Both the position numbers and the translations under genes were made by a program. The notes beneath the pieces are model-generated. The model searched no databases and was not told the DNA's origin. It saw only the letters and a list, made by a program, of their open reading frames with translations. Shown piece after piece: positions 45,116 through 59,894 of a DNA stretch of 64,000 bases (position 1 is its first letter; the number at the start of each line of letters is the position of its first letter). The stretch is from Methanobacteriota archaeon (lineage in GTDB: Archaea; Thermoplasmatota; Thermoplasmata; RBG-16-68-12; JAJISG01). The stretch lies in assembly GCA_030594205.1 (NCBI GenBank), contig JAUVFR010000006.1, positions 1 to 64,000 on the forward strand, in the 5' to 3' direction.

Positions 45116-45156
45116 AGGCGGTCATACGCAACCTGGACGTTAGTCAGGCCAGTAAG
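45116..45156 (+). other. 5' strand of 23S pre-rRNA processing stem
   Basis: AGGCGGTCATACGCAACCTGGACGTTAGTCAGGCCAGTAAG pairs with 48350-48390 over about 30 bp, with a bulged internal section. Confidence 0.85.
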
Positions 45157-48349
<3,193 letters not shown>

Positions 48350-59635: not shown

Positions 59636-59746
59636 CGGGCCTGAAGGGACTTTCGGGGCCACGGGGGCCCTTTCGAACCCTTGACCAATCGGTATCTCCG
59701 GAGTGGCCTAAGAGCCGATCGCTCTACCTAGCTGAGCTACAGGCCC
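59636..59746 (-). tRNA. tRNA-Lys (CUU) with two introns
   Basis: Reverse complement after intron removal: GGGCCTG TA GCTC AGCTAGGTA GAGC G ATCGG CTCTTAA CCGAT TGGTC AAGGG TTCGAAT CCCTT CAGGCCC G (74 nt). Introns: 59694-59708 (15 nt, position 37/38) and 59650-59671 (22 nt, position 59/60). Confidence 0.96.
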
Positions 59747-59894
59747 GTCAGGGGACCATGAGCGGCGGGTGGGCTTAAAGATATTGAGAGGGAGGTGCGG
59801 GGCGAGTCTTTATAGAATCCGAAGGGTGGGAACACCCGTGGACCTCCGGGACCTGGGGGAGCCTCGACTCGAGTACCGTCCCCTCCTCGCAGGC

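Follow-up and report, generated by a model that had tools for sequence, protein, structure and literature searches.

The T-loop is a normally invariant part of the tRNA. Published work locates most of the non-canonical introns of archaeal tRNA genes in Crenarchaeota, Nanoarchaeota, and Thaumarchaeota (PMC4090602, PMC8450103), and position 59/60 is one of their catalogued sites, with Crenarchaeota and Nanoarchaeota as rich sources (PMC4090602). According to reviews, few tRNAs of Euryarchaeota with alpha4 or alpha2 enzymes carry introns, and those that do have a single one, at 37/38 (PMC4090602); euryarchaeal tRNAs with multiple introns are listed only for Methanopyrus kandleri and Methanothermobacter (PMC4033280). 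The non-canonical intron models of tRNAscan-SE 2.0 derive largely from introns of Crenarchaeota and Thaumarchaeota (PMC8450103); some T-loop introns of Thermoplasmata may be among the 673 non-canonical introns in the table for this program. In the main texts of the open-licence papers that we searched, no report of T-loop introns in Thermoplasmata was found. Here, we describe a tRNA-Lys(CUU) gene with such an intron. We consider it highly probable (roughly 93%) that this single-copy gene is functional, that two protein-spliced introns of the bulge-helix-bulge (BHB) type are removed from its transcript, and that T-loop introns are old and widespread in Thermoplasmata.

The gene is located on the minus strand of the window, i.e., the whole stretch of 64,000 nt that was analyzed, and its pre-tRNA is 111 nt long (59746 down to 59636; Table 1). 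Read along the minus strand, it consists of GGGCCTGTAGCTCAGCTAGGTAGAGCGATCGGCTCTTA (ggccactccggagat) ACCGATTGGTCAAGGGTTCGAA (agggcccccgtggccccgaaag) TCCCTTCAGGCCCG, in which the bracketed segments are the introns and the others the exons. When both introns were taken out, a standard tRNA of 74 nt was obtained, and ARAGORN called it as tRNA-Lys(ctt). The same program called no tRNA in the unspliced pre-tRNA, in the form with the anticodon intron alone removed, or across the window, and the Rfam tRNA model scored 26.5 bits on the unspliced gene, which is under its cut-off. The sequence-only reading had proposed two introns with exact boundaries in this gene, and the dissection and the ARAGORN call on the spliced form agree with it to the base.

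Table 1. Features of the tRNA-Lys(CUU) gene and its surroundings, in window positions.
Feature	Positions	Strand	Basis
tRNA-Lys(CUU) gene, two introns	59636..59746	-	sequence dissection
Exon 1, 38 nt, positions 1-37, ends A37; anticodon CTT at 59710-59712	59709..59746	-	sequence dissection
Intron 1 GGCCACTCCGGAGAT, 15 nt, canonical 37/38, relaxed bulge-helix-loop type	59694..59708	-	
Exon 2, 22 nt, A38 to A59, contains T-stem 5' strand (59678-59682) and TTCGAA	59672..59693	-	
Intron 2 AGGGCCCCCGTGGCCCCGAAAG, 22 nt, T-loop position 59/60	59650..59671	-	
BHB central helix 5' strand TTCG (T54-G57), partner CGAA at 59652-59655	59674..59677	-	fold and covariation
5' bulge AA^A, predicted cut between 59672 and 59671	59671..59673	-	cut inferred from BHB rule
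Outer helix GGGCC/GGCCC, loop CCCGT	59656..59670	-	fold and covariation
3' bulge AG^T, predicted cut between 59650 and 59649	59649..59651	-	cut inferred from BHB rule
Exon 3, T60 to discriminator G73 (positions 60-73)	59636..59649	-	
TATA-like box TCTTTAAG, candidate promoter ~28-35 nt ahead of exon 1	59774..59781	-	seen in sequence; putative function

The unconstrained minimum-energy fold of the pre-tRNA gave the BHB of the T-arm exactly (5-bp T-stem + 4 bp, 3-nt bulge, 5 bp, loop, 5 + 4 bp, 3-nt bulge). Two 3-nt bulges, separated by a helix of 4 bp, are thus located at the exon–intron junctions, and the T-loop intron is a strict BHB. The folding z-score of the whole gene was only −2.1, so the folding energy by itself is weak support. 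When the 22-nt intron was shuffled, the 4-bp central helix and the 5-bp outer helix were both present in 0.018% of the shuffles. We also compared 13 T-loop introns from this genome and related genomes. In this set, which was picked for its T-loop-intron appearance, so that the central helix is partly pre-selected, while the outer helix was no criterion for most of the members, 94.5% of the pair cells were paired (75.2% when shuffled), two-sided pair changes numbered 31 (8.0 when shuffled), and the covariation score was 0.556 (0.198 when shuffled), a value that none of 500 shuffles reached. The signal was lost when the partner columns were slid. The fold and the covariation therefore confirmed the strict T-loop BHB that had been claimed from the letters. 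In random sequence rich in GC, the bare helix criteria have about 0.27 chance matches per 64 kb, and tRNA identity was therefore always demanded. In the 37/38 intron, C32-U33-C34-U35 can pair with GGAG without a real outer helix, and the minimum-energy fold favours a pairing shifted by one nucleotide; this intron is of the relaxed bulge-helix-loop (BHL) form, unlike the strict T-loop intron.

A survey of tRNA-Lys(CUU) in related genomes, as the sequence-only reading had suggested, was run on 60 relatives, and the same 59/60 intron was found in this gene in six of them. The sequences of these introns differ, and their BHB structure is conserved. Five of the six have names in a public collection: Euryarchaeota archaeon RBG_19FT_COMBO_69_17, Thermoplasmata DBS2-1.bin2, Thermoplasmata UBA8695, Ca. 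Thermoplasmatota bin292, and Euryarchaeota bin_16. The host is therefore an uncultured archaeon of the Thermoplasmata type, and the lineage proposed from the letters was correct. In other genomes of the order, tRNA-Lys(CUU) has a 37/38 intron only or is intronless, and the 37/38 intron is longer in some genomes.

In the source genome, a covariance model of the T-arm BHB identified seven tRNA genes with T-loop introns: Lys(CUU), Lys(UUU), Ser(UGA), His(GUG), Leu(UAA), Met(CAU), and Arg(CCG). The Lys(UUU) gene (G000:C57:23305-23351 and upstream) has three introns, at 20/21 in the D-loop, 37/38, and 59/60. Its D-loop intron is a near-BHB with the central helix CTAG/CTAG and recurs in several families, and the same triple or double layout was seen again in other families. 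Because the central helix of the Arg(CCG) T-loop intron has a C-A mismatch, the T-loop introns are not all strict BHBs; this gene, at C60:11662, was assigned to Arg(CCG) from its anticodon stem-loop, GGGGC-CTCCGGA-GCCCC. By an approximate hand count, about 29 introns are distributed over the 42 tRNA genes of the source genome, or 0.69 per gene, and the reported means are 0.21 for archaea and 0.84 for Thermoproteales (PMC8450103). The tRNAs were gathered by model searches, which did not find Cys, Ser(CGA), Thr(GGU), or a third CAU tRNA in the source genome; these may be in assembly gaps or may have further introns. Additionally, tRNA-Val(UAC) (G000:C64:283162-283267) has an apparent D-loop intron and a 37/38 intron. 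The tRNA-Trp gene (G000:C29:94700-95000) has a long 37/38 intron; in other archaea, the tRNA-Trp intron houses a C/D box guide RNA (PMC4090602).

With the same model, matches at E ≤ 0.01 were detected in 144 of 200 Thermoplasmata genomes, and the best match was strong (E ≤ 1e-5) in 130. Independent tRNA criteria (a 5-bp T-stem, a 4-bp central helix, and a matching acceptor stem) confirmed 36 of 38 sampled matches, from about 20 families, as full tRNA genes; the strict scanner left the other two unconfirmed. Many isotypes, among them Arg, Gly, Asp, Asn, and Lys, are represented in the confirmed genes, and the inserts range from 18 to 43 nt across genes and genomes. Matches were also detected in 18 genomes that belong to the phylum but not to the class, and 15 of the 20 sampled were confirmed. 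These results indicate that T-loop introns of the 59/60 type are old and widespread in Thermoplasmata. The expectation that such an intron would be unusual in a Thermoplasmata-like genome thus fails for the lineage, given the seven tRNAs here and the matches in most of the surveyed genomes, and it holds only against the published picture. In some out-of-class genomes (five loci noted), tRNAs of different isotypes share near-identical T-loop introns, e.g., tgcaacttgc...gcaagttg.

The gene could be a decayed pseudogene with insertions, its function being provided by an intact tRNA-Lys(CUU) gene elsewhere, and the assembly is only 94% complete. The sequence-only reading had named a second intact gene beside a silent present copy as the case against it; we looked for such a gene and found none in the genome at this completeness. 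The exon stems are all perfect and the exons nearly identical to those of relatives, the pairing of the insert has been kept by compensatory changes, and six other tRNAs of the genome carry the same kind of insert, all of which makes a pseudogene very improbable. We give even less credence to the idea that the T-loop insert is retained, in a tRNA with an expanded T-loop for a special purpose: the T-loop is required for the tRNA elbow, the insert varies in length over the range given above while the structure of the cut sites is conserved, and many isotypes are affected.

The 23S rRNA gene of the window is interrupted by a group I intron (intron at 47094-47337, within 45154-48349, plus strand; Rfam RF00028, 68.7 bits, E 2.5e-15), which lies near the E. 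coli 1923/1931 site, as judged from the flanking sequence, and is of a known kind (PMC6125680). The presence of this intron might favour a self-splicing group I or II intron in the tRNA as well, but 22 nt is far below the size of a catalytic core and there is no Rfam match at tRNA-Lys(CUU), so this candidate was refuted by its length and its probability is negligible. Another explanation concerns the origin of the inserts, which might be scars of mobile elements at the T-arm, a common attachment site for integrating elements, that later became introns or a protection against integration. Both integration and protection models have been published for archaeal tRNA introns (PMC3293823, PMC4090602), and the near-identical introns in tRNAs of different isotypes in some out-of-class genomes suggest that introns have moved from one tRNA gene to another, which is also known from Thermoproteales. 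We regard such an origin as rather unlikely, and it bears on how the introns arose, not on their present function.

For a functional gene with two protein-spliced introns, the enzymes are present in the genome. An RtcB ligase was found (2e-180), and EndA is encoded by a single gene, whose product of 354 aa is one chain with two PF01974 domains. Its N-terminal repeat is without the catalytic Tyr and His, and the C-terminal repeat retains Tyr, His, and Lys. One chain, two repeats, and a triad in the C-terminal repeat only are the hallmark of alpha'2, to which the enzyme would belong as judged from its sequence. Its best matches are M. kandleri (5X89) and A. pernix alpha. An alpha'2 form with shortened repeats was rejected on account of the length, compared with 289-305 aa in T. 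acidophilum and A. fulgidus, and of the complete N-domain of the second repeat. The (alpha-beta)2 form was rejected as well, because there is a single gene and the alignment showed no insertion at the site of the Crenarchaea-specific loop (CSL) of A. pernix. In the epsilon2 form of ARMAN, each chain comprises three units (about 390 aa) and an ASL loop. The EndA here has two PF01974 matches in 354 aa and no insertion at the CSL position, the position of the ASL being a presumed one.

Every form of EndA cuts a strict BHB, and relaxed motifs need a more permissive enzyme (PMC6379350, PMC8707768). This published rule fits the anatomy of the gene, because the T-loop intron is strict and the 37/38 intron relaxed. 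Homodimeric EndA also cleaves BHL motifs (PMC8707768), and the alpha'2 enzyme of A. fulgidus removes 37/38 BHL introns in full-length pre-tRNA (PMC6379350, PMC8707768); for related alpha'2 enzymes, a narrow specificity has been reported (PMC6379350). Since the EndA here has no CSL and its alpha'2 relatives are narrow, we are less sure that the relaxed 37/38 intron is removed than that the T-loop intron is. We propose that, in a transcript of the gene, the exon TTCG would pair with CGAA at the 3' end of the T-loop intron to form the strict BHB. The single-chain EndA would cut the T-arm BHB at AA^A and AG^T, and RtcB would join A59 to T60, so that TTCGAAT is restored. The same EndA may cut the relaxed 37/38 intron, which is probably the second to leave, because relaxed sites require a tRNA body in its mature form and the elbow between the D-loop and the T-loop is disrupted as long as the T-loop intron is present. 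The motif TTCRA is present in the T-loop of almost every tRNA. It supplies half of a BHB, and position 59/60 may therefore be a ready-made, portable landing site.

Short EndA forms were found in families f22 (26 genomes) and f19 (four genomes), with open frames of about 286–311 aa where listed; one f22 EndA matches that of T. acidophilum (2OHC) over its whole length (3e-49). Family f27 (two genomes) has a single domain match, in open frames of 318 and 248 aa. T-loop-intron matches were present in 0 of the 32 genomes of these three families and in 144 of the 168 other Thermoplasmata genomes, a contrast that is confounded by shared ancestry and may reflect just one or two events in ancestors, given a possible relationship among f19, f22, and f27; a link between the EndA form and T-loop introns is thus a hypothesis and not a finding. 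Family f9 also has a single domain match, but its frame is 334–400 aa, and it has confirmed T-loop introns. Out-of-class genomes that encode a long two-domain EndA but lack any T-loop match are common (e.g., G400, G403, and G405), so the long EndA is permissive at best and was ruled out as the full explanation of T-loop introns. It is conceivable, although somewhat doubtful, that the long EndA of Thermoplasmata, with two full repeats, no CSL, and apparently no ASL, tolerates near-strict BHBs in the D- and T-loops and was lost together with the T-loop introns in the Thermoplasma branch. If true, this would contradict the proposed need for a loop-bearing heterotetrameric or epsilon2 enzyme for non-canonical introns. 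Long-EndA families with T-loop introns, beside short-EndA families without them, offer a natural test of the co-evolution of intron position and enzyme. Should T-loop introns be common in Thermoplasmata, annotation may overlook or mislabel many tRNA genes of this class, and the tRNA gene counts behind genome-quality estimates may be wrong.

Because the 59/60 site was already known from Crenarchaeota, the T-loop intron is of a known kind, newly seen as lineage-wide in Thermoplasmata. The non-canonical introns of Crenarchaeota (Thermoproteales; Sugahara et al. 2008, as summarized in PMC4090602) resemble those described here in their BHB junctions, in the use of the 59/60 site, in the occurrence of several introns per gene, and in the additional D-loop introns at 20/21. 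The difference is that Crenarchaeota have an (alpha-beta)2 EndA with the CSL, whereas the present host belongs to Thermoplasmata and has a single-chain EndA encoded by a single gene, and most of the T-loop introns here are strict. The three introns of tRNA-Ile(UAU) in Cyanidioschyzon merolae, in the D-, anticodon, and T-arms (PMC9602550), have the same layout as those of Lys(UUU) here, but this red alga is a eukaryote with another splicing enzyme. The EndA of Thermoplasma acidophilum (2OHC) and that of Ferroplasma (288 aa, PMC8707768) are likewise single two-repeat chains with Tyr, His, and Lys in the C-terminal repeat; they are the short form, which occurs in families without T-loop introns, in contrast to the 354 aa and fuller repeats here. 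M. kandleri and Methanothermobacter also have euryarchaeal tRNAs with more than one intron, and these are listed as rare exceptions (PMC4033280), whereas in Thermoplasmata the trait is class-wide.
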